This document shows positions 6,408-23,801 of a stretch of DNA of 32,703 nucleotides, one piece after another. This DNA is from Acidobacteriota bacterium (GTDB lineage: Bacteria > Acidobacteriota > Blastocatellia > Pyrinomonadales > Pyrinomonadaceae), in contig JAJPKD010000271.1 in NCBI GenBank assembly GCA_021323895.1, positions 1 through 32,703 of the forward strand, read 5' to 3'. Position 1 is the stretch's first letter. Every line of letters begins with the position of its first letter. The position numbers and the translations under genes were made by a program. The notes below the pieces were generated by a model. It saw only the letters and a list, made by a program, of their open reading frames with translations, was not told the origin of the DNA and made no database searches.

Positions 6408-6872
6408 CTATCGCTCAATCGGCAGGGCAGCCGCTTCCCAGGCTCGATAGCCACCCAGCAGCGCCGCTGCATTCGTGACTCCTTGCCGTTTCAACTGAAG
6501 TACCGCACGGGCACTTGTCTCTTCGGCCGGTCAAGAACAGTAGGTAATGATTTTCTTTCCCTTCGGCAGTGAAGATCCGCGCACCGCAATCTCGGCTTCG
6601 GGCAGCGAAAGTGCTCTGGCTATGTGGCCTGCCTGGAACGCGCTGGCTTGGCGCACGTCAACGAATACGGCCTCGCCTTTTTCGACCGCCGCCCTTGCTT
6701 CTGGAATAGATACGCGCTCGACTGTCCTTTGCGCCGCATGGTCATCCTCGCCAATGGGCGCAGTTGGCGGCGTTTGTGTCCGCGATACATTGCTGGGACT
6801 GCTGGTGTTCTGTGAGATGCAGCCACTTAAGAGGACTAAAGCCGCCATCACCATCAACACTAAGACTCGCAT
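6408..6872 (-). CDS. Rhodanese-like lipoprotein with in-frame TGA (candidate selenoprotein, CxU)
   Basis: The full reading is 154 aa if TGA at 6531-6533 is selenocysteine; ordinary calling stops at 113 aa. A lipoprotein signal (MRVLVLMVMAALVLLSGC) is followed by a rhodanese domain with VFVDVRQASAFQAGHIARAL. The active-site loop reads ITYCS-U-PAEETSARAVL, and the frame continues through LQLKRQGVTNAAALLGGYRA to a TAG at 6408. Everything after the TGA is a normal rhodanese C-terminus, so the frame is conserved. The related YCxCPxE loop has Cys where TGA stands, three residues into the loop after the catalytic Cys112. A stem-loop lies 15-33 nt downstream. Rhodaneses move sulfane sulfur; here the site is extracytoplasmic. 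A good SD (AAGGAG) precedes the ATG. The alternative is a nonsense mutation. Confidence 0.7.
6498..6516 (-). promoter_or_regulatory. Candidate bacterial SECIS hairpin in the rhodanese gene
   Basis: Reading the mRNA (minus) strand, the sequence AAGTGCC-CGTGC-GGTACTT forms a 7-bp stem (one G-U) with a 5-nt loop. The loop starts 21 nt after the TGA at 6531-6533 and has G at position 2 followed by T. This fits the general bSECIS rule of a small loop 16-37 nt after TGA with an early G. It is the least E. coli-like of the four hairpins. Confidence 0.5.
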
Positions 6873-10086: not shown

Positions 10087-13000
10087 TTAATATTCGACCC
10101 GCTCTCGCTCAAACCAGCGATAAAGCATGGGCAGCACGAGCAGCTTCAGGACGGTTGAAACAAGTAAACCGCCAATCACCACCGTCGCCAATGGACGTTG
10201 CACTTCCGCGCCGGCTGACGTTGCGATGGCCATGGGCACAAATCCGAGACTTGCGACCAGCGCGGTCATAAGGATCGGACGCAGCCGGGCGTCGGCTCCT
10301 TCTCTAACAGCTTCATCCAGCGATTTCCCTTCGTCGCGCAGCTTGTTGACGTAGCTGACCATGACGATACCGTCGAGCACCGCGACGCCGAATAAGGCAA
10401 TGAAGCCGACACCCGCGGAAATGGAAAACGGTAAGCCGCGCACAAATAAGGCGAAGACGCCACCAACTATTGCCATGGGAATGCTTGTGTAGATCAGTAT
10501 CGCCTGCTTGATTGAATTAAATGTCGTGAACAGCAGCATAAAGATGAGGAAGAGCGCCAGCGGCACCACGATCATGAGTCGCGCCGTGGCGCGCTGCAGG
10601 TTCTCGAATTGGCCACCCCAGGTCAGGTAATAACCGGAAGGAGTCTGCACTTGCTTATCGATCGCTTTCTTTGCTTCTTCCACGAAGCTCTTGGTGTCCC
10701 GGCCGCGCACGTTGAGTTCCACTCCGATACGGCGGCGGGTATCCTCTCGTGAAATTTGTGCAGGGCCTTCAACGATCTTTATGTCCGCGAGTTGCGACAG
10801 GGGCACGCGGGCGCCGCTCGGGGCCGGAACCAGCAAGTTCTTAATCGTCTCGACGTCTTTGCTGGTTGCCTCGGCTAGTCGAACCACCAGGTTGAATCTC
10901 TGCTCTCCCTCGTAAACCAGGCCCGCTGATTTGCCCGCCACGATTGATTCAACCACATCGTTGACATCCGAGACATTAATGCCGTAACGCGCGATCGCCG
11001 CGCGGTCCGGTTTGATCTGAAGTTGCGGTAAGCCCGTCACCTGTTCGACCTTGACGTCTTCCGCGCCTCGAACCCTTGAAACTACACCAGCGATCTGATC
11101 GGCAGTCTTCTTAAGTTGATCAAGATCATCTCCAAACAACTTGATCGCCACATCTGAACGCACCCCGGAGATAAGTTCCGAGACGCGCAGTTCAATAGGC
11201 TGCGAGAAACTGAAGTTTGCTTCCGGCATCCCGTTCTCCAACGCCTGCGACATCTTTTCGACCAGTTCTTCGCGGGTACGCGCGCTCGTCCATTGCTCAT
11301 GGGGCTTCAACTCGACGTACACGTCGCTCAGATCGACGCCCATCGGATCAGTCGCTACTTCCGCGCGCCCGGTCTTAGAGATGACCTTCGTGACTTCGGG
11401 AAACTTTCTGAGTATTGCTTCTACGGCTGTCGCTGTTTCTATCGAGCGACTGAGAGATACGCTTGGCAGCCGTTGAATCTGAATTGCCAGCGAGCCTTCT
11501 TCCAGGCGGGGAATAAACTCCGCACCCAGGAACGGGAACAGCGCAAAGCTGACGAGCACAAGCGCCGTAGTCGCCGCGAGCGTTTTGGTGCGATGGGTGA
11601 GAACAAATTCCAACGCCGGCTTGTACCAGCGCTTCGAGTAACGAATAAAAATGCTCTCCGTTTCGGCGACTTTTCCCTTCAGAATGAAAGTCATCGCTGC
11701 CGGGACGTAGGTAAGCGAAAGAATCAAGGCACCGATGAGCGCGAACACGACGGTTAAGGCCATCGGCTTGAACATCTTGCCTTCAATGCCACTGAGGCTG
11801 AGGATCGGCAGATAAACGATGGTGATGATTGCCACGGCAAATACGACGGGACGGCCAACTTCCAAACAGGCTTCGAGGATGGTGCGTTCGGGCGGTTCGT
11901 GTGAACCGGCGTGTTGAGCTTCCGCCCGTCGGCGCACGGCGTTTTCCACCACGATCACCGCGCCGTCAACGATCAAGCCGAAGTCCAGTGAACCGAGGCT
12001 CATCAGGTTGCCGGACACATTGAAGATGCGCATCAGAATTGCCGCGAACAGCATCGAGAGCGGAATGACGGTGGCCACCAGTAAGGCACCGCGCCAATTC
12101 CCTAGCAGGATGATGAGCACGATTATTACCAGCACCGCGCCTTCGATGAGATTTTTGGCGACGGTGTGAATAGTGCGATTCACAAGTTCGGTGCGGTCAT
12201 AGAAAGGAACCAACTGCACGCCCTTAGGTAGAGTCTTGCGCACCGCTTCGACTCGTTCTTTTACTCGGTCGACGACTGCGCGAGAGTTCTCGCCTTTGAG
12301 CATCATGGCGATGCCCGCCACAATCTCACCTTTGCCATCGGCCGTTACCGCACCTTGCCGGACGGTCGCTCCAGTCACCACTTCGCCGAGATCGCGGACG
12401 AAGATCGGCACACCTTCCTTGCCTGCCTTAACGATGATGTTGGCGATGTCGTCGGCTTTCTCGGCGAGACCGATGCCTCTCAGCAGATACTGCTCGGGGC
12501 CATGTTCGATATAAGCGCCGCCGACATTCGCGTTGTTGCGCCCAACCGCTTCGAGGACATCTCGAAGCGTCAGACCGAACGATTGCAGCTTGGCGGGATC
12601 GAGGCGCACCTGGTATTGCTTTTCCAGTCCGCCAAAACTGTTAACTTCGACCACGCCGGGAACACCCAGCAACTGTCGCCGCACGCTCCAATCCTGAATC
12701 GTACGCAGGGCCGTCGCGTCATAACCGCTTCCAGCAGCGCCAACGAGCTGGTACTGGTAGATCTCGCCGAGGCCGGTAGAGATCGGTCCCATCTCCGGCG
12801 CGCCGATGTTTTCAGGAATCTGATCGCGCGCTTCACCGAGACGTTCCAGCACCAGTTGGCGCGCGAAATAAATGTCCGTCGAATCATCGAAGACAACGGT
12901 AACCGCCGAAAGACCAAAGCGAGAGATTGAACGAATCTCGGTTAGTCCCGGCAATCCCGACATCGCCACTTCCACTGGAAACGTAATCTGCCGCTCAATC

Positions 13001-13179
13001 TCGAGTGGTGCGAGACTCGGAGCAGCAGTCAATACCTGAACTTGAACGTTGGTAACGTCGGGTACGGCATCGATTGGAAGTTGTTGCAGACTGTAGAGTC
13101 CCGCGCCAATCAGAATCGCGACCATCAAAAGGATCAAAACCCGCTGCGAGACAGCAAACCCAATGATTCCATCAATCAC
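10087..13179 (-). CDS. czcA: Heavy-metal efflux RND inner-membrane transporter, CzcA-like
   Basis: The product is 1030 aa, normal HME-RND length. The N-terminus (RVLILLMVAILIGAGLYSLQ) is a membrane helix, and 12 helices with two large periplasmic loops follow. The TM4 motif DFGLIVDGAVIVVEN carries the Asp-Asp-Glu proton-relay set typical of the CzcA (Zn/Co/Cd) type; CusA-type (Cu/Ag) pumps lack the first Asp. The family drives metal out of the periplasm or cytoplasm through a tripartite complex using proton influx. The start is GTG at 13179. It forms an operon with the MFP and OMF genes upstream (gaps of 35 and 18 nt). The identification is firm; the substrate is inferred. Confidence 0.93.
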   Translation of the reverse strand: MIDGIIGFAVSQRVLILLMVAILIGAGLYSLQQLPIDAVPDVTNVQVQVLTAAPSLAPLEIERQITFPVEVAMSGLPGLTEIRSISRFGLSAVTVVFDDSTDIYFARQLVLERLGEARDQIPENIGAPEMGPISTGLGEIYQYQLVGAAGSGYDATALRTIQDWSVRRQLLGVPGVVEVNSFGGLEKQYQVRLDPAKLQSFGLTLRDVLEAVGRNNANVGGAYIEHGPEQYLLRGIGLAEKADDIANIIVKAGKEGVPIFVRDLGEVVTGATVRQGAVTADGKGEIVAGIAMMLKGENSRAVVDRVKERVEAVRKTLPKGVQLVPFYDRTELVNRTIHTVAKNLIEGAVLVIIVLIILLGNWRGALLVATVIPLSMLFAAILMRIFNVSGNLMSLGSLDFGLIVDGAVIVVENAVRRRAEAQHAGSHEPPERTILEACLEVGRPVVFAVAIITIVYLPILSLSGIEGKMFKPMALTVVFALIGALILSLTYVPAAMTFILKGKVAETESIFIRYSKRWYKPALEFVLTHRTKTLAATTALVLVSFALFPFLGAEFIPRLEEGSLAIQIQRLPSVSLSRSIETATAVEAILRKFPEVTKVISKTGRAEVATDPMGVDLSDVYVELKPHEQWTSARTREELVEKMSQALENGMPEANFSFSQPIELRVSELISGVRSDVAIKLFGDDLDQLKKTADQIAGVVSRVRGAEDVKVEQVTGLPQLQIKPDRAAIARYGINVSDVNDVVESIVAGKSAGLVYEGEQRFNLVVRLAEATSKDVETIKNLLVPAPSGARVPLSQLADIKIVEGPAQISREDTRRRIGVELNVRGRDTKSFVEEAKKAIDKQVQTPSGYYLTWGGQFENLQRATARLMIVVPLALFLIFMLLFTTFNSIKQAILIYTSIPMAIVGGVFALFVRGLPFSISAGVGFIALFGVAVLDGIVMVSYVNKLRDEGKSLDEAVREGADARLRPILMTALVASLGFVPMAIATSAGAEVQRPLATVVIGGLLVSTVLKLLVLPMLYRWFERERVEY

Positions 13180-13214
13180 GTTAGAGGTATCCCTTCACTG
13201 AGCTAGACAAAACG

Positions 13215-14687
13215 TTAGTCGCCCTCACCCAAACTGCCCTTCATCAATTGCGTCTTCAGTGCGAAGCTGCCTTTGGTAACTACTTTGTCACCCAGCTTCA
13301 GGCCGCTGATCACCCGGTGGTAGTTGTCCTGCTCGCCGCCAAGCTCGACATTGCGGGCCTCAAACACACCCGGCTCGTTTTCCTTCGGAACGAATACGAC
13401 GCTGCGATCGCCGATGCGTTGCACTGCTTCCGACGGAACCACTAGGTCCTCACCAGCGCCGCTGCCGCTTGCGGTCTCGAATCCCACCTCAACGAACATC
13501 CCCGCTTTGAGCCGTTCGCCGGGGTTGCTTAGCTCGACCCGCACGCGCGCGGTTCGAGTTTCTTCGCTTAGGCGAGGGTCGATGTAGTTAACCCGTCCGG
13601 CAATACCGTTTGGCCCCAGGGCTGCCGAACGGATTTCTGCCGGCGTGCCGTTGTGAATGCTTCCCACCTGAGATTCGGGCACGTTCGCAATCACCCAAAC
13701 GGTGGAGAGGTTCCCGATAGTGAAGAGCGTCTTTCCAGCCTCGACACCCGCGCCCGCGTTGACGTTTCGTTCCATGACCGTACCTGACACGGGTGAACGC
13801 ACCGGAATAAATGAAATGTTCTCTTTGTGGTAATCCTTCGCCGCTTCGTTCACGGTCACACCGAGCGCGGATAAACTCGTTCGTAAATGCTCGACTTCGG
13901 TGCTGCTGGTTTCCACCTCAGTCTGTGCTTCCTGCACTTCGCGATTGAGAGAGATGTTGCTTTGAAACTCGTATTCAGCCTTCGCCGTCGTATAAGCCGT
14001 CTCGGCCGTTACCAGATCTTTGCCAGCGCCGACGCCCAACTCGATTAGTCGGCGAGTGCGCTTCAAAGTGGCTTCGGCTTCATCCAATTTAGCTTTTGCC
14101 GAGAGCACGCCGGCGCGATTCTCAGCCCGCTGCACCCGTTGCAGATTCCGGCGTGCTGCTTGCTCGCGGGTCATTGCTTCGCGCAGTTTGCCGTGCATCT
14201 CCGCCACCTCGGGACTGGCGATTATTGCGAGCACCGAACCGGCGCCGACCCGGTCGCCAAGTGATACATTGACGCGCTCGATGCGGCCAGAGACCAATGG
14301 CGTGACCTGCTGGGTCTGCTGCTGGTTGGCTTCAACTGTTCCTGTCACTTTCAAAAGCGAGACCGCGGGGCGTTGGGTTATCCCCTGAATCTCGATCCCA
14401 GCCGCCGAAACCGCCTCTGGAGAAAGTTTCACCTCGCTGGGAGCAGCGCTTTCGCCCTTGGTTTCGACTGTAGCTCCTTCCTTCTTCGGCTCGGCCCGCC
14501 CCCGGCGCATGTAAAGCACCGCGACGACGGCGACTATGGCTACGAGCGCCACCACCGCGACGATGACGATCGTTTGCCGAGATGAGAAACGCGAGCGACT
14601 TACCGTCGTAAACTTTGGGCCCGCCGCTTCACCGTCGGTGGAGTCGCTGTCACTATCAATATGTTCCTGGGTTAATTGATCACTCAT
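13215..14687 (-). CDS. czcB: Membrane fusion protein of the efflux pump, CzcB-like
   Basis: The product is 490 aa. The cytoplasmic N-terminus is unusually long and acidic, followed by one membrane helix (IVIVAVVALVAIVAVVAVLY). Lipoyl-like half-motifs flank a long helical hairpin at about residues 160-270, with many Ala/Glu/Arg heptads. A beta-barrel domain includes VRSPVSGTVMERNVNAGAGV and the C-terminal domain reads DRSVVFVPKENEPGVF. MFPs bridge the RND pump and the outer-membrane channel. A GAGGA precedes the ATG. No His-rich metal-binding N-terminus or CusB-type Met cluster is seen, in line with a Zn/Co/Cd rather than Cu pump. Confidence 0.9.
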   Translation of the reverse strand: MSDQLTQEHIDSDSDSTDGEAAGPKFTTVSRSRFSSRQTIVIVAVVALVAIVAVVAVLYMRRGRAEPKKEGATVETKGESAAPSEVKLSPEAVSAAGIEIQGITQRPAVSLLKVTGTVEANQQQTQQVTPLVSGRIERVNVSLGDRVGAGSVLAIIASPEVAEMHGKLREAMTREQAARRNLQRVQRAENRAGVLSAKAKLDEAEATLKRTRRLIELGVGAGKDLVTAETAYTTAKAEYEFQSNISLNREVQEAQTEVETSSTEVEHLRTSLSALGVTVNEAAKDYHKENISFIPVRSPVSGTVMERNVNAGAGVEAGKTLFTIGNLSTVWVIANVPESQVGSIHNGTPAEIRSAALGPNGIAGRVNYIDPRLSEETRTARVRVELSNPGERLKAGMFVEVGFETASGSGAGEDLVVPSEAVQRIGDRSVVFVPKENEPGVFEARNVELGGEQDNYHRVISGLKLGDKVVTKGSFALKTQLMKGSLGEGD

Positions 14688-14705
14688 TTGTCTGGTTCCT
14701 CACTC

Positions 14706-16124
14706 TCATTTAATGGGCGTCCCCATGGCTGCTGCTAGATCGGCCAACGCGCGGTACTGTTCACTCAAGGCCTCGGTAAACTCGCGCTGCGAGTCCACGA
14801 GCCGCCGTTGCTCTGTAAGCAAGTCGGTAATTTTGAACTCGCCAATCTGATAGGCTGCGCGGATAGCTCGAATGTTCTCGTTTGACCGGGTGATGACACC
14901 CTGGTCGTAGGTGGCGATTGCGGCGCGCGCGGCTTCATATCGTGCAAAGGCGCTCTGCACTTCTGTGCGCACCACGTGTTCAAGAAATTCGCGTCGCCGT
15001 TTCGCTTGATCGATCGCTAACGCGGCTTCGGTTTTCGTTCCCTGATTTCGATTGAAAACCGGAATGCCCACTGAGACACCAAACGAAAGTAATTTGTCCC
15101 GATCAGTGAGGACTCCAACCGGCGTATCGTCAAAGGCGGACCGACTGACTGTGTATTTACTGAAAGGCGTTATATCGGGGACGCCTTCGGCGCGCGCCAA
15201 GCGCAGTCCCGCCTGAGCAACTTCTTCGGTCAATCGCGCCAGACGAAGGTCCGGGCGGGTGCGCAGGGCAATCTCAACTGCGGACTCTACTGAAGACGGC
15301 GGCGACGGCAGCGGCGGCGCATTCAAATCTTCGTTCAAACGCAGTAACTCATCGACTGGCGTTCCTGTCAGACTCTTAAGCCGCAGAATTGCTGCCTGTA
15401 ATTTCCCTTCGACCAGCGCGCGACGGGAACGCAAGCGGTCCACCTCCACGCGCAAGAGATTCAACTCGAGTGGTGCCGACTCGCCCTCGTTGACGCGCGC
15501 CTGCACAAAGCGGGTCGTCTGCACATCGATCTCGTTAAGGTTTTGGGTGATTTCCAGTTCTCGTAGTGAGGCCAAGGCTTCCGCGTACGTCGCCCGAACG
15601 TCATTTGCCAGCCGACGTTCGCGATCGGCTATCTCAGCTTCGGCAGCCTCGAATTCGGCCTGCGCGAGTTCGCTGCGACGTCGTCGCTTGCCACCCATTT
15701 CCAGCGGTACTGCCACGCCGATACTCGTCTCGACTTCGCCTGCCGAACCCGTGAAGCGTCCAGTTGTCTGCTCAAAGTCAATCGTCGGGTTTGGTCTCAG
15801 CCCCGCTTGCCGCAAACGAGCGCGTGCTCGTTCAATGTCGAGCCGCGCGGCCGTTAACTCACCATTGGTCGTCAGTGCCCGGCGTACCAGGTCGATGGAT
15901 GATGTGCCTTGCAGTGGGTCGAAATAGCGACTCACGATCGTGCTCGGGAAACTGTTGGCGAGTGACTTACCCGTATTGAGATCTGCTGCGGGTGTATCGG
16001 CGATCTTAAGTTCGCTAGTCACGACCGGTTGTTGGGATAAAGCCGAACTGCTAAACATCAAGACAGAGAGAATCAGCGCCCAGCCTTGAACAAAGCGAGC
16101 CGACCCTCGGCGGTAAAACGACAT
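14706..16124 (-). CDS. czcC: Outer-membrane efflux channel, CzcC/TolC-like
   Basis: The product is 472 aa from the ATG at 16124. This start follows an AAGGAA by 8 nt; a TTG at 16157 would be the longer alternative. A signal peptide (ARFVQGWALILSVLMFSSSA, then LSQQP) is followed by two repeated OEP domains. These are marked by SIDLVRRALTTNGELTAARL, LRQAGLRPNPTIDFEQTTGR, VESAVEIALRTRPDLRLARL and GVSVGIPVFNRNQGTKTEAA. The family forms a trimeric outer-membrane duct for the RND pump. It is the first gene of the czcCBA set; about 140 nt separate it from the Cys-rich ORF upstream. Confidence 0.92.
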   Translation of the reverse strand: MSFYRRGSARFVQGWALILSVLMFSSSALSQQPVVTSELKIADTPAADLNTGKSLANSFPSTIVSRYFDPLQGTSSIDLVRRALTTNGELTAARLDIERARARLRQAGLRPNPTIDFEQTTGRFTGSAGEVETSIGVAVPLEMGGKRRRRSELAQAEFEAAEAEIADRERRLANDVRATYAEALASLRELEITQNLNEIDVQTTRFVQARVNEGESAPLELNLLRVEVDRLRSRRALVEGKLQAAILRLKSLTGTPVDELLRLNEDLNAPPLPSPPSSVESAVEIALRTRPDLRLARLTEEVAQAGLRLARAEGVPDITPFSKYTVSRSAFDDTPVGVLTDRDKLLSFGVSVGIPVFNRNQGTKTEAALAIDQAKRRREFLEHVVRTEVQSAFARYEAARAAIATYDQGVITRSNENIRAIRAAYQIGEFKITDLLTEQRRLVDSQREFTEALSEQYRALADLAAAMGTPIK

Positions 16125-16268
16125 AGTCACGTTCCTTTTTTCGAACCCTCGCTGCAACGCTGTCGCGAAGAGAGACGGGCTGCATGATTGTTCCTGGGAT
16201 GGGTTAATGGTTGCGAAGCACCATTGAACCCAAAGCGACGCGGAATGGCGTCTACGAAGGCTTAGGAA

Positions 16269-20512: not shown

Positions 20513-21388
20513 TTATGACTTCTGCCGTTTCTTGATCTCCACCAATGCTTCTTCCACCGTGCCGTGCGGTTTGTCTTTGAGTTCCGGGTATCCATTCAAC
20601 CACTCATTTAGAGCTTCTTCAGACCTGAAGAAGTTAATGACGCCTCAACCACCGCCCGCGAAGAAAATCGTCGACGCGGGCTGGGCAGTGATCAACTTGG
20701 CCTTATCAAAGATGAGGTGAATACGTGCGGTACTTTCCGGCGAGGAATCATCTATCGTGACCTTTTCACTTGCGAGTTTGTCGCTGACCAGCGACAGCGA
20801 GTCGAGCGCTCAATTCACATTGAACTGTCGCCCACTGTCGAGACTTATCTTATGAAAGACAAAGTCCAGGCGCGGTTCCCATTTAATGTAGTGCGGCACG
20901 ACACGATAGCTGGCTTTAGCGGCGCTACTGTCTTTCTTCAAGATATCGTATCGTTCAAGCATGTTCAGCCCACGCTTCACGTCTGCTTCACTCACACCGA
21001 CAGCTTTCGCTAACTCAGACGTGCTCGGCGTCGGCTTGGCATCACGTTCAGCATTAATCAGCGCGCGCGCAATCAATTTCTCGTCCGGAGTCAACACCAG
21101 CGTCACCCATCCCCAGCGCCGAACGATCTCATGAAGTTCGGGATGAGACTTGATGTAGTTGCCGATGCGAAAGCGCGTTTCGTCTGACGGCTCAACTTTG
21201 AGCGCGGCCATCGCGATATCGACGCTGGTGACGCTGAAATCCTGACCCCAATCGTTCACCAAATAATCGATGACCTTTTGTTCTTGAGGGTTGAGCTGTC
21301 CTTGATCAATGGCAGCGTTTGCGGCGCTACTAAATAACAGCACGCACGATACCAACAGTAATCCGCGTTTGATCATAAAGGATCGCAT
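20513..21388 (-). CDS. merB: MerB-like organomercurial lyase, exported, with two in-frame TGA (candidate di-selenoprotein)
   Basis: The frame runs 291 aa if TGA at 20810-20812 and 20645-20647 are selenocysteine. A signal peptide (GLLLVSCVLLFSSAANA) precedes an N-terminal winged-helix part (STSELAKAVGVSEADVKRGL). The first TGA falls in FNVN-U-ALDSL, matching the WC-ALDTL site of R831b MerB, where Cys96 and Asp99 are catalytic; the Asp is kept at U193+3. The second TGA falls in AGGG-U-GVINFFRS, matching FC-C-HVHFF, where Cys159 is catalytic. Reading continues through EALNEWLNGYP to TAA. MerB splits C-Hg bonds and releases Hg2+; Sec at both sites would be unusual. Each TGA has a GGTC-loop hairpin downstream. 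Canonical MerB is cytosolic, so an exported form is also unusual. Last gene of the mer operon, 17 nt after the TlpA-like stop. Confidence 0.85.
20614..20633 (-). promoter_or_regulatory. Candidate bSECIS hairpin after the second merB TGA
   Basis: On the mRNA strand CTTCTTCA-GGTC-TGAAGAAG is a perfect 8-bp stem with a GGTC loop. The loop starts 19 nt after the TGA at 20645-20647. The apical part CAGGTCTG is the same as in the E. coli fdhF SECIS, whose G and T contact SelB. Confidence 0.8.
20779..20796 (-). promoter_or_regulatory. Candidate bSECIS hairpin after the first merB TGA
   Basis: On the mRNA strand TGTCGCT-GGTC-AGCGACA is a perfect 7-bp stem with a GGTC loop. The loop starts 20 nt after the TGA at 20810-20812. 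Loop sequence and distance match the second merB hairpin although the stems differ in sequence, as expected for selected structure. Confidence 0.75.
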
Positions 21389-21405: not shown

Positions 21406-21894
21406 TTAAGTTCCTGATTTCGCCTTGAGTAAAGTTTCGATGTCGCGCTCAATGTCAGCGCTCTTATTCGGTGGCGAGCCGGAATATTTCTTGTAGAACT
21501 TCCAACCGGGTGCGATGACGTAGGTTGCCGGAAAGCTGATTACGCCGAAGTCAGAAACCGAATCGTCATTCCCTACCAGAATCGTGTAACGCATCTTGTA
21601 TTGAGTTGCGAATTTCTGGATGTCGCTCGCCCAGCCGGATTGCACTGCCAACCCGATGACTTTGACGCCGCGCGAAGAATATTTTTCTTGCAACTTATTG
21701 AAGGCAGGAATTTCTCCGACACAGTTCTCACACCAGGTCGCCCAGAAATCGAGGACCACAATGTTGTCCTTCAGGTCTTGCGAGCGCAGCGTCTGGCCGT
21801 CGAGTTTCGGCAATGAAAACTCAGGCAGCGGTTTCGGGTCCTGCCCCGCCACGCTACAAAACAGAAAACAAATAAGGACGAATACTCGCATCAT
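21406..21894 (-). CDS. TlpA/ResA-like exported thioredoxin
   Basis: The product is 162 aa. A signal peptide (MRVFVLICFLFCSVAG) leads into a redoxin/AhpC-TSA fold with WATWCENCVGEIPAFNKLQ, so the redox pair is Cys55 and Cys58. The cis-Pro loop is ISFPATYVI. It would reduce or shuffle disulfides in the periplasm. Its ATG overlaps the stop of the CopZ-like gene (ATGA arrangement), so the two are translationally coupled. In this operon it may keep the Cys or Sec residues of the exported MerB-like and thioredoxin-like proteins reduced, which is inference. Both CxxC cysteines are normal codons here, in contrast to its neighbours. Confidence 0.88.
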   Translation of the reverse strand: MMRVFVLICFLFCSVAGQDPKPLPEFSLPKLDGQTLRSQDLKDNIVVLDFWATWCENCVGEIPAFNKLQEKYSSRGVKVIGLAVQSGWASDIQKFATQYKMRYTILVGNDDSVSDFGVISFPATYVIAPGWKFYKKYSGSPPNKSADIERDIETLLKAKSGT

Positions 21895-22388
21895 CTCACT
21901 TTGCCGGATTCATGGATTTGTTCCCTTAGCCGCTTGACCGCTCTATTCACTTCGCCGAGGCAGCACGCGCCCGATGGATTGCGAGTTTCACACGCGCATA
22001 GGCCTTCTCGGATAAGCCTCGAAATTCGTTCTGGAATTGTGGTGTTGCCGGTTCGGAAGATTTCATCTCGGACGTGGCTCTCCTCGAATCCAAAGCAATA
22101 GCACAAAGGAATTGGATCTGTTTTCGCCTTGAGGCCGACAATCGTCCGCAGATCATCCTTAGTGAATACTCGGTTACTATTTTCTTCGAAATAGACGACC
22201 GGACAATCGCGTGCCTGGCAGAAGCAAAACGCTCCCGTCAATGCTTGTTCGAGTAGATGAGGGTTCAACATCAAGAGGACCGTCTTTCGTGAGACAGGCC
22301 GGCCTTCGTCCTTGCAAGTGGCGCAGCTTTCAACCATTGGTTCTAAACTTCGCTCTGCAATCAAAGTGTCCGTTGCACAACAGGTCAT
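21891..22388 (-). CDS. CopZ-like Fe-S-cluster metallochaperone
   Basis: The product is 165 aa with 15 cysteines. The N-terminal part starts MTCCATDTL and has ESCATCKDEGRPVS, then FCFCQARDCPVVYFEENSNR, a Zn-binding domain as in Archaeoglobus CopZ. The C-terminal part reads LCYCFGFEESHVRDEIF, then LIREGLCACETRNPSGACCL, a BFD-like [2Fe-2S] domain with four Cys ligands. The family passes Cu+ or related soft metals to transporters. No HMA domain is present. It sits between the Sec thioredoxin-like gene (29-nt gap) and tlpA. Within a mer operon it probably handles Hg2+ or Cu+ in the cytosol. Confidence 0.8.
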   Translation of the reverse strand: MTCCATDTLIAERSLEPMVESCATCKDEGRPVSRKTVLLMLNPHLLEQALTGAFCFCQARDCPVVYFEENSNRVFTKDDLRTIVGLKAKTDPIPLCYCFGFEESHVRDEIFRTGNTTIPERISRLIREGLCACETRNPSGACCLGEVNRAVKRLREQIHESGKVR

Positions 22389-22417: not shown

Positions 22418-22990
22418 CTATTTCGCACGCTCGCGTAACAACTTCTGGATCGCTTCTCTGGTCCCATCAATTCCGTGGATGACAGGGACATTTGAATAAG
22501 CTGGTTCAGGCGGCGCTTGACTCCACTGCTTTCCCGGCGCATAGACAGCGACATAATCCCAAACCACAGATGAGCTGTCCTTCTCGCCGAGTGCCTGAGA
22601 AACAAGATGCTCCTTATCCCAATATTGCGAAGCTCTCAGATCGGATACTCGCGCCAGCGTTCTAGTCGAGGGCGCGCCTAAATCAGTTGTCAATACCGGT
22701 TCCCAGATCACAAACACCCGGACTCTTGGATCGCGTTGTTCATCAAGCAGCTTTTGGATTGCAGAGGCCCCCTGCAAACATACCGTTCAAGTGGGAGACA
22801 GCATCACTACCAAGCGAACGGAATTCGCAGAGCCGTTGAATGCATCCTTGAGCGATGAAATATTGGAACCAGTCAGACGAACCAGCGGTTGCTGTCCGTT
22901 GGGAACAGTGCTCCCCCAGTAAAAGTAATAGAACGCCACCAAGACGATCGCCGCCAGCCCACCTCCGATAATGATTCCCTTGCGTTTCAT
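22418..22990 (-). CDS. Membrane-anchored thioredoxin-like protein with UxxC (candidate selenoprotein)
   Basis: The ATG at 22990 opens a 190-aa frame interrupted once by TGA at 22787-22789 (codon 68) and ending at a TAG. One N-terminal helix (GIIIGGGLAAIVLVAFYYFY) anchors the protein, with the rest outside. The region reads RLVVMLSPT-U-TVCLQGASA, the place of a CxxC motif after a beta strand, so the site is U68-x-x-C71. The C-terminal half (VRVFVIWEPVL, then VWDYVAVYAPGKQW and NVPVIHG) continues the fold. Normal calling splits it into two ORFs (22787-23071 and 22418-22777). A UUGCAG-stem hairpin follows the TGA. The start lies 13 nt after the MerT-like stop. The role is probably redox or Hg2+ capture outside the membrane, like MerP; I do not recognise an exact family. 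Confidence 0.8.
22759..22777 (-). promoter_or_regulatory. Candidate bSECIS hairpin in the thioredoxin-like gene
   Basis: On the mRNA strand TTGCAG-GGGGCCT-CTGCAA forms a 6-bp stem, extendable by G-T and G-C pairs, with a G-rich loop. The loop starts 15 nt after the TGA at 22787-22789, or 17 nt if the stem is extended. The stem TTGCA is also found around the apical loop of the E. coli fdhF SECIS. Confidence 0.65.
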
Positions 22991-23003: not shown

Positions 23004-23369
23004 TCAGCCGGCCAAAAGGTTCGCCAGGAAATTCGCGATGGCTTGCGGAAACAGAATAAACACGAGCACAACGATCGACGAGAACCACAGGAGAAGCGCG
23101 CTCACGAGATTCGGTTTACAGTTGCATTGTTTGGCCCGCCACCGTTGATAAAAGCCAAATCCGATCAGCAGCACGGATGCTGCTAGCAAGAACGGTCGAA
23201 GCTTCACAAAGAATGCGGAAGTCCCGGCCGTACCCGCCGCGAAAAGAAAAGGAAGCAGCGGCAGGCAACAACTCGATGCCAAAACTACGCTACCGAGCGC
23301 ACCTAAACTCGCAAGAATCGTACTTGGGGAGCGCCCGCCTTTGTTGGTAGCAAAACTGTTACTTGTCAT
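23004..23369 (-). CDS. merT: MerT-like mercuric ion transporter
   Basis: The product is 121 aa from the ATG at 23369; a longer frame reaches 23426 but would overlap merR. It has three membrane helices. The first carries the Hg-binding vicinal pair SSCCLPLLPFLFA (Cys34-Cys35). The cytoplasmic loop has AKQCNCKPN (Cys82, Cys84), matching the second MerT Cys pair. MerT passes Hg2+ from the periplasm to cytosolic MerA. No MerA or MerP is in the window, so the sink for Hg2+ is unclear. It is the second gene of the operon. The Shine-Dalgarno is weak. Confidence 0.85.
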   Translation of the reverse strand: MTSNSFATNKGGRSPSTILASLGALGSVVLASSCCLPLLPFLFAAGTAGTSAFFVKLRPFLLAASVLLIGFGFYQRWRAKQCNCKPNLVSALLLWFSSIVVLVFILFPQAIANFLANLLAG

Positions 23370-23395
23370 GTCGCTGTTTTGCAAGAGCATGAGCG

Positions 23396-23801
23396 CTAAT
23401 CGTTGACGGGCAACACCGGGCAGCAAGCCGAATCGCCATGTTCTTTGAGTTCTTCATCACAAGCCGCGAGTTGTCGCGCAAGCAGATGGCGAAAAGCTTT
23501 CATCGCCTTTAGCCGTTCATCCAATTCAGAAAGTTTACGGTTAAGCAGGTCACGCACTCTTCGACATTCCTCAGCGCCGCCTGTCGCCAACAGTCCTTTT
23601 ATTTCCTCGAGTGAGAATCCCAACTCTTTCGCTTGCTTGATGAATCGCACTCGCTCAATGTGCTCAGGCGCGAACAGTCGAAATCCACCTAAAGAACCGC
23701 GCAGGCCTCGGCAAGAGCTTCACCTTCTCGTAATAACGCAGAGTGTCGATGCTTACGCCCGCACGCTTCGCTACTTCCCCAATTTGTAGCCCACTGTCCA
23801 T
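23396..23801 (-). pseudogene. merR: MerR mercury-responsive regulator, +1 frameshift
   Basis: The protein starts MDSGLQIGEVAKRAGVSIDT at 23801, preceded by GAGG, and reads LRYYEKVKLLPRPA. Then the frame breaks. Skipping one base (near 23699) restores GSLGGFRLFAPEHIERVRFI and a normal MerR end of about 134 aa. The length of 406 nt (3n+1) agrees with a single inserted base. The three Hg-ligand cysteines are present: EECRR, LAACDEE and ACCPVL, corresponding to Cys82, Cys117 and Cys126 of Tn501 MerR. The DNA-binding wing lies exactly where the shift occurs. A sequencing or assembly error is as likely as a true pseudogene. First gene of the operon, just below its promoter. Confidence 0.82.

Follow-up and report, generated by a model that had tools for sequence, protein, structure and literature searches.

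The window analyzed here, a 32,703-nucleotide stretch of an Acidobacteriota contig, carries on its minus strand (20513..21388) a MerB-family frame that encodes 291 residues when TGA is read as selenocysteine (Sec) and that ends in TAA. Exactly two stops lie inside the frame, both TGA, at codons 193 (20810..20812) and 248 (20645..20647); the assignment as a putative double-Sec MerB-like protein rests on the PF03243 domain, the absence of any other interruption, and eight homologs that carry both TGAs. The N-terminus is hydrophobic and ends in ANA/A, and those of the homologs are similar, as judged by inspection without a predictor. On this basis a signal peptide is predicted over approximately residues 1–26 (…AANA/A; 21311..21388, minus strand) and the protein is apparently exported. 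The first-pass annotation, made from the sequence alone, had likewise proposed a signal peptide and a location outside the cytosol; the hydrophobic N-terminus was confirmed by inspection only, and export remains an inference.

PF03243 scored the window protein at 36.4 bits, above the gathering cut-off of 27, and five homologs at 30–48 bits, with another (L028) slightly under the cut-off at 25.4 bits. The cut-offs of the canonical MerB models in NCBIfam (NF033555, 200 bits; NF009710, 193 bits) were not met, the window protein giving no match at 0.01 and the homologs scoring only 19–23 bits, far below these thresholds. A profile built from nine close relatives and four distant ones matched solved MerB structures (5c17, MerB2, E 2.8e-17; 1s6l, E 3.7e-16), and the next unrelated match was at 0.03. 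By residue count in the profile alignment to 1s6l, U193 corresponds to Cys96, D196 to Asp99, and U248 to Cys159, such that Asp99 of the canonical catalytic triad (Cys96, Asp99, Cys159) is retained and both Cys positions are TGA; the first-pass claim of two TGA-only interruptions at exactly these positions, with Asp99 kept, thus held. The structural Cys117 of MerB is not Cys in the window protein; Cys occurs in that stretch of L027–L030. The AlphaFold model built with the profile alignment (pLDDT 85.8, pTM 0.80; an earlier model from two sequences, pLDDT 54, was left out) recovered only MerB structures under 0.001 in Foldseek, and its VIA-align comparisons with MerB structures met the test for the MerB fold (Z 11–15), with rmsd of 2.0–2.6 Å over 114–126 residues in seven of eight structures and 15–27% identity to characterized MerB in the structural alignments. 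Because the top row had an rmsd of 7.2 and the winged-helix background reached Z values up to 10, the sequence evidence is given more weight than the fold.

Each TGA is followed by a SECIS-like hairpin on the same strand. Hairpin 1 (20779..20796; TGTCGCT-GGTC-AGCGACA) has a perfect 7-bp stem and its loop begins 20 nt past the TGA; hairpin 2 (20614..20633; CTTCTTCA-GGTC-TGAAGAAG) has a perfect 8-bp stem with the loop at 19 nt, as the first-pass annotation had claimed. When all 1,242 TGA trinucleotides on both strands of the window were screened in any frame for a perfect stem of at least 6 bp capped by a GGTC or GGTT loop, only the two Sec sites and one other qualified, the latter an out-of-frame TGA located 5 nt upstream of the first site, with hairpin 1 in common. 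All nine genes of the family showed this spacing (20 nt at site 1, 19 nt at site 2), and the loop was GGTC at 17 of their 18 sites (the exception being site 2 of L040). The stems covary through compensatory changes (e.g., at site 1, GTCGCT/AGCGAC, GCTGCT/AGCAGC, and GCTGTT/AACAGC). With the amino acids fixed, synonymous recoding attained the observed stem in 0.2–0.9% of trials at 16 of the 18 sites and in 3% at site 1 of L039, where the stem includes a G-U pair; site 2 of L040 was not scorable. One caveat is that hairpin 2 owes part of its form to the codons of the conserved FFRSEE motif, in which TTC TTC … GAA GAA is a ready-made inverted repeat and the Arg-Ser codons supply GGTC. Since these codons preform a hairpin, the Cys159 position was perhaps easy to convert to Sec, although this is inferred.

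The first-pass annotation had proposed looking for Sec machinery in the genome, and that check was passed: the source genome encodes SelB (375 bits, above the cut-off), SelA (530 bits), SelD (362 bits; itself a predicted selenoprotein with one TGA in the motif CSGU), and a tRNA-Sec with anticodon TCA (ARAGORN). TGA also serves as an ordinary stop, ending two MerB homologs as well as two genes of the cluster (MerT and CopZ-like); its use in these cluster genes shows that the code is not reassigned. Three sequence-level tests usual for a bacterial selenoprotein were passed, namely the Sec machinery, a SECIS-type hairpin after the UGA, and alignment of the TGA with Cys in homologs. Sec decoding at both codons is very likely on these grounds; production of the protein and insertion of Sec are inferred, as there are no protein data.

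To date, the double-Sec version is represented by nine genes, the eight others coming from Acidobacteriota genomes at 27–73% identity. Among GTDB contigs there was a single match, from a Blastocatellia MAG; it is 73% identical overall and keeps both TGAs. Searches of Acidobacteriota added seven more (G500, G504, G510, G323, G097, G125, and G112). All nine contain exactly two TGAs in identical alignment columns, with U-x-x-D at the first site and an invariant Asp99, and none has the random non-Cys residues that would have undermined the first-pass reading. Because both TGAs recur in separate genomes, sequencing error is untenable as their source, even though raw reads were not examined. H179 and F254 are common to the double-Sec proteins and the Cys MerB-like proteins, and more distant MerB-like proteins have Cys or TGA at each of the two catalytic positions. 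Against the nearest relatives, dN/dS was 0.10–0.14 before the TGAs, 0.16–0.28 between them, and 0.08 past the second (a single comparison with unsaturated dS), which indicates purifying selection on the segments after each TGA. The first-pass claim that read-through restores a complete MerB C-terminus in a two-Sec organomercurial lyase is accordingly supported, with lyase activity and Sec insertion still inferred.

Phylogenetic analysis placed the nine exported double-Sec proteins in one clade (100/100), apart from Cys-only MerB and from a cytosolic one-Sec clade (support 100/97) formed by MerB-like proteins of six other Acidobacteriota genomes (L060–L064 and L066). The latter resemble the window protein in having TGA at Cys159 and an equivalent kind of hairpin over the FFRSEE codons, but differ in that Cys96 remains Cys and no signal peptide is visible. 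Their single TGA fits the idea that the Cys159 position was readily converted to Sec. A search of 396 Acidobacteriota genomes turned up no Cys counterpart of the exported clade, and plasmids yielded only remote actinobacterial alkylmercury lyases of the Cys type (24% identity). A PF03243 search of genome G000 missed even the window gene, and therefore the absence of further MerB in that genome has not been shown. Separately, a MerB-like protein without a signal peptide (L075:1360-2124, plus strand) has TGA at both catalytic positions (GAUAEDAF and DYUMQTVFF); it is possibly an independent double-Sec case, with a long branch that leaves its origin unsure. Decayed double-Sec copies were also observed (L042, and a C-terminal remnant at G002:C2:331046-331123), which suggest that, like a resistance trait, the gene is gained and lost.

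In the window, the genes are arranged in transcription order as merR, merT, a predicted UxxC selenoprotein, a CopZ-like gene, a TlpA-like gene, and the double-Sec merB, all on the minus strand. The MerR-type regulator (23396..23801) is split by a 1-nt frameshift in the assembly, either a sequencing error or a genuine loss, its C-terminal piece matching TIGR02051 (MerR) at 4.8e-20 and its N-terminal piece a MerR-family HTH. The MerT-like mercuric transporter (23004..23426) is recognized by a CC pair in TM1 and CNC in the loop, and by NF033556 at 2.1e-8, under the cut-off. Next lies a membrane-anchored thioredoxin-like protein (22418..22990) with no match in Pfam or NCBIfam, predicted to be a selenoprotein from its TUTVC motif (TGA at 22787-22789); the motif recurs in L049, where the homolog reads LSPTUPGC (LSPTUxxC motif) and is frameshifted further on. 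The CopZ-like 2Fe-2S metallochaperone of the CC type (21891..22388) scored 127 bits with NF047645, above the cut-off, and the TlpA/ResA-like thioredoxin with an N-terminal signal (21406..21894; PF00578, and NF002854 at 1.5e-21, under the cut-off) is the immediate upstream neighbor of the double-Sec merB in all nine genomes. A metal island in the same window includes a CusA/CzcA RND pump with adaptor and TolC-like genes (10087..16157, minus strand) as well as Zn/Cd/Cu-type exporters. Elsewhere, a rhodanese-like lipoprotein, also a predicted selenoprotein, is encoded at 6408..6872 on the minus strand (ITYCSU, TGA at 6531-6533; NF041203 at 3.6e-20, under the cut-off).

Comparable neighborhoods were seen in other genomes. 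G510 has the order merR, merTP, Sec-MerP/TlpA fusion, double-Sec merB, and CusA-type pump, the fusion being a predicted Sec-MerP (GMTUDGC) joined to a TlpA domain directly upstream of the lyase-like gene (L051:9496-10209, minus strand). In G112, genes for a MerR-family regulator, a CopZ-like protein, and a distinct MerB-like protein of the Cys type lie near the double-Sec gene. These mer-type neighborhoods are a firmer link between the family and mercury than the fold by itself. No MerA was found above the cut-off in the two genomes tested, and the best candidates (337–340 bits against a cut-off of 454) lack the C-terminal CC pair and resemble dihydrolipoamide dehydrogenase. MerA thus appears to be lacking, with the reservation that a MAG at 95% completeness cannot prove absence.

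The TGAs at Cys96 and Cys159, the retained Asp99, the hairpins, the Sec machinery, the conservation across nine genomes, and the mer-type neighborhood are shown by sequence. Our main reading of them, which we consider likely (probability roughly 0.72), is that the protein belongs to the MerB (alkylmercury lyase) superfamily and is an exported selenoprotein in which two selenolates replace both catalytic thiolates; export and C-Hg lyase activity are inferred. In the MerB mechanism, one of the two cysteines (Cys96 or Cys159) captures the organomercurial and the other gives a proton to Asp99, which protonates the leaving carbon (PMC4525700). By analogy, SelB would insert Sec at both codons and the protein would then be exported, one selenolate (U193 or U248) would bind the R-Hg+ substrate, the other would hand a proton to Asp196, and Asp196 would protonate the carbon leaving group. 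The resulting Hg(II) would be held as a Se-Hg-Se adduct and removed by thioredoxin-like partners, whether TlpA, the UxxC protein, or Sec-MerP. Two Sec residues may mean that both ligands are ionized at neutral pH and bind Hg more tightly, probably at the price of a product that is released slowly; the neighboring TlpA and UxxC proteins could ease this. Both points are inferences. Given that no MerA was recognized, export and storage are possible fates of the Hg(II) produced.

Several points weigh against this reading. There are no protein or activity data, similarity to characterized MerB is low, the NCBIfam MerB cut-offs are far off, Cys117 is absent from the window protein, the substrate could be another organometal, and a MerT transporter without MerA fits poorly with an exported lyase. 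A bolder reading, which the evidence falls just short of favoring, is a selenium-based mer system of Acidobacteriota in which an exported diselenolate lyase would cleave organomercurials outside the cytosol and pass Hg(II) to Sec partners (the UxxC protein and Sec-MerP/TlpA) without MerA.

Among the rival explanations, the protein could be an exported two-Sec metal binder, a scavenger or chaperone for Hg(II) or another soft metal, that kept the MerB fold and cleaves no carbon-metal bond. The adjoining TlpA-like and CopZ-like genes and RND pumps, the low overall similarity to MerB, and D99S variants of MerB, which reportedly have altered metal affinities (PMC8261052), speak for it; however, Asp99 is invariant beside both Sec residues in all nine proteins, for which a mere binder has no obvious need, and H179 and F254 are likewise shared with Cys MerB-like proteins, so we regard it as unlikely. 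We think it similarly improbable that the protein is a lyase for another organometal or organometalloid. A role in organometallic biochemistry has been proposed for SaoL-type MerB relatives (title of Haft and Gwadz 2023, cited in PMC13188914) and the metal island holds Zn/Cd/Cu-type exporters, but the neighbors are of merR and merT type in the window and of merR, merTP, and MerP type in G510. A pseudogene, or a 192-residue product truncated at the first TGA, is very unlikely: TGA is a normal stop in the source organism and decayed copies are known, but nine genes with identity down to 27% have exactly two TGAs and no other stop, dN/dS is low past each TGA, the SECIS-like hairpins are conserved, and the full Sec machinery is present. 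Reassignment of TGA to another amino acid, supported solely by the open frame, is all but excluded by the genes that TGA terminates and by the presence of SelA, SelB, SelD, and tRNA-Sec.

With canonical MerB (R831b; 1s6l, 3f0o; PF03243), the window protein shares the MerB-domain fold, an HTH-like region before the domain, the triad positions, the FFxS motif, and a mer-type neighborhood; it differs in having Sec for both catalytic Cys, a predicted signal peptide, and ∼70 extra N-terminal residues, in lacking Cys117, and in scoring under the MerB equivalog cut-offs. SaoL (NF040728), a MerB-like organometallic lyase, is also a MerB-like selenoprotein but is tabulated with one Sec, in a CU motif (PMC13188914), and its cut-off of 140 bits was not reached by the window protein (16 bits) or its homologs (21–22 bits); the window genes that were scanned gave no match to a Sao partner. 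Like the Sec-MerP/TlpA fusion of G510, the MerT/CopZ-fusion and UxxU metal-binding selenoproteins (NF045683, NF041115) place Sec in mercury or metal transport, but they are not lyases. An inventory of 119 prokaryotic selenoprotein families from May 2026 has SaoL as its one MerB-like entry (PMC13188914), a 2020 review mentions “Organic mercuric lyase MerB2” as a selenoprotein but gives no detail (PMC7435645), and a 2021 survey shows MerA and no MerB entry in its Acidobacteria row (PMC8261052). The open-access literature searched yielded no description of an exported MerB or of one in which both catalytic Cys are replaced. Standard gene calling halts at the first TGA, which is a blind spot for such proteins. 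Mercury has a higher affinity for selenium than for any other biological ligand, and selenoenzymes are generally regarded as victims of mercury. An enzyme with two Sec residues at the MerB Cys positions would make the Se-Hg affinity a tool, and it would allow any advantage of Sec over Cys in C-Hg cleavage to be tested directly.
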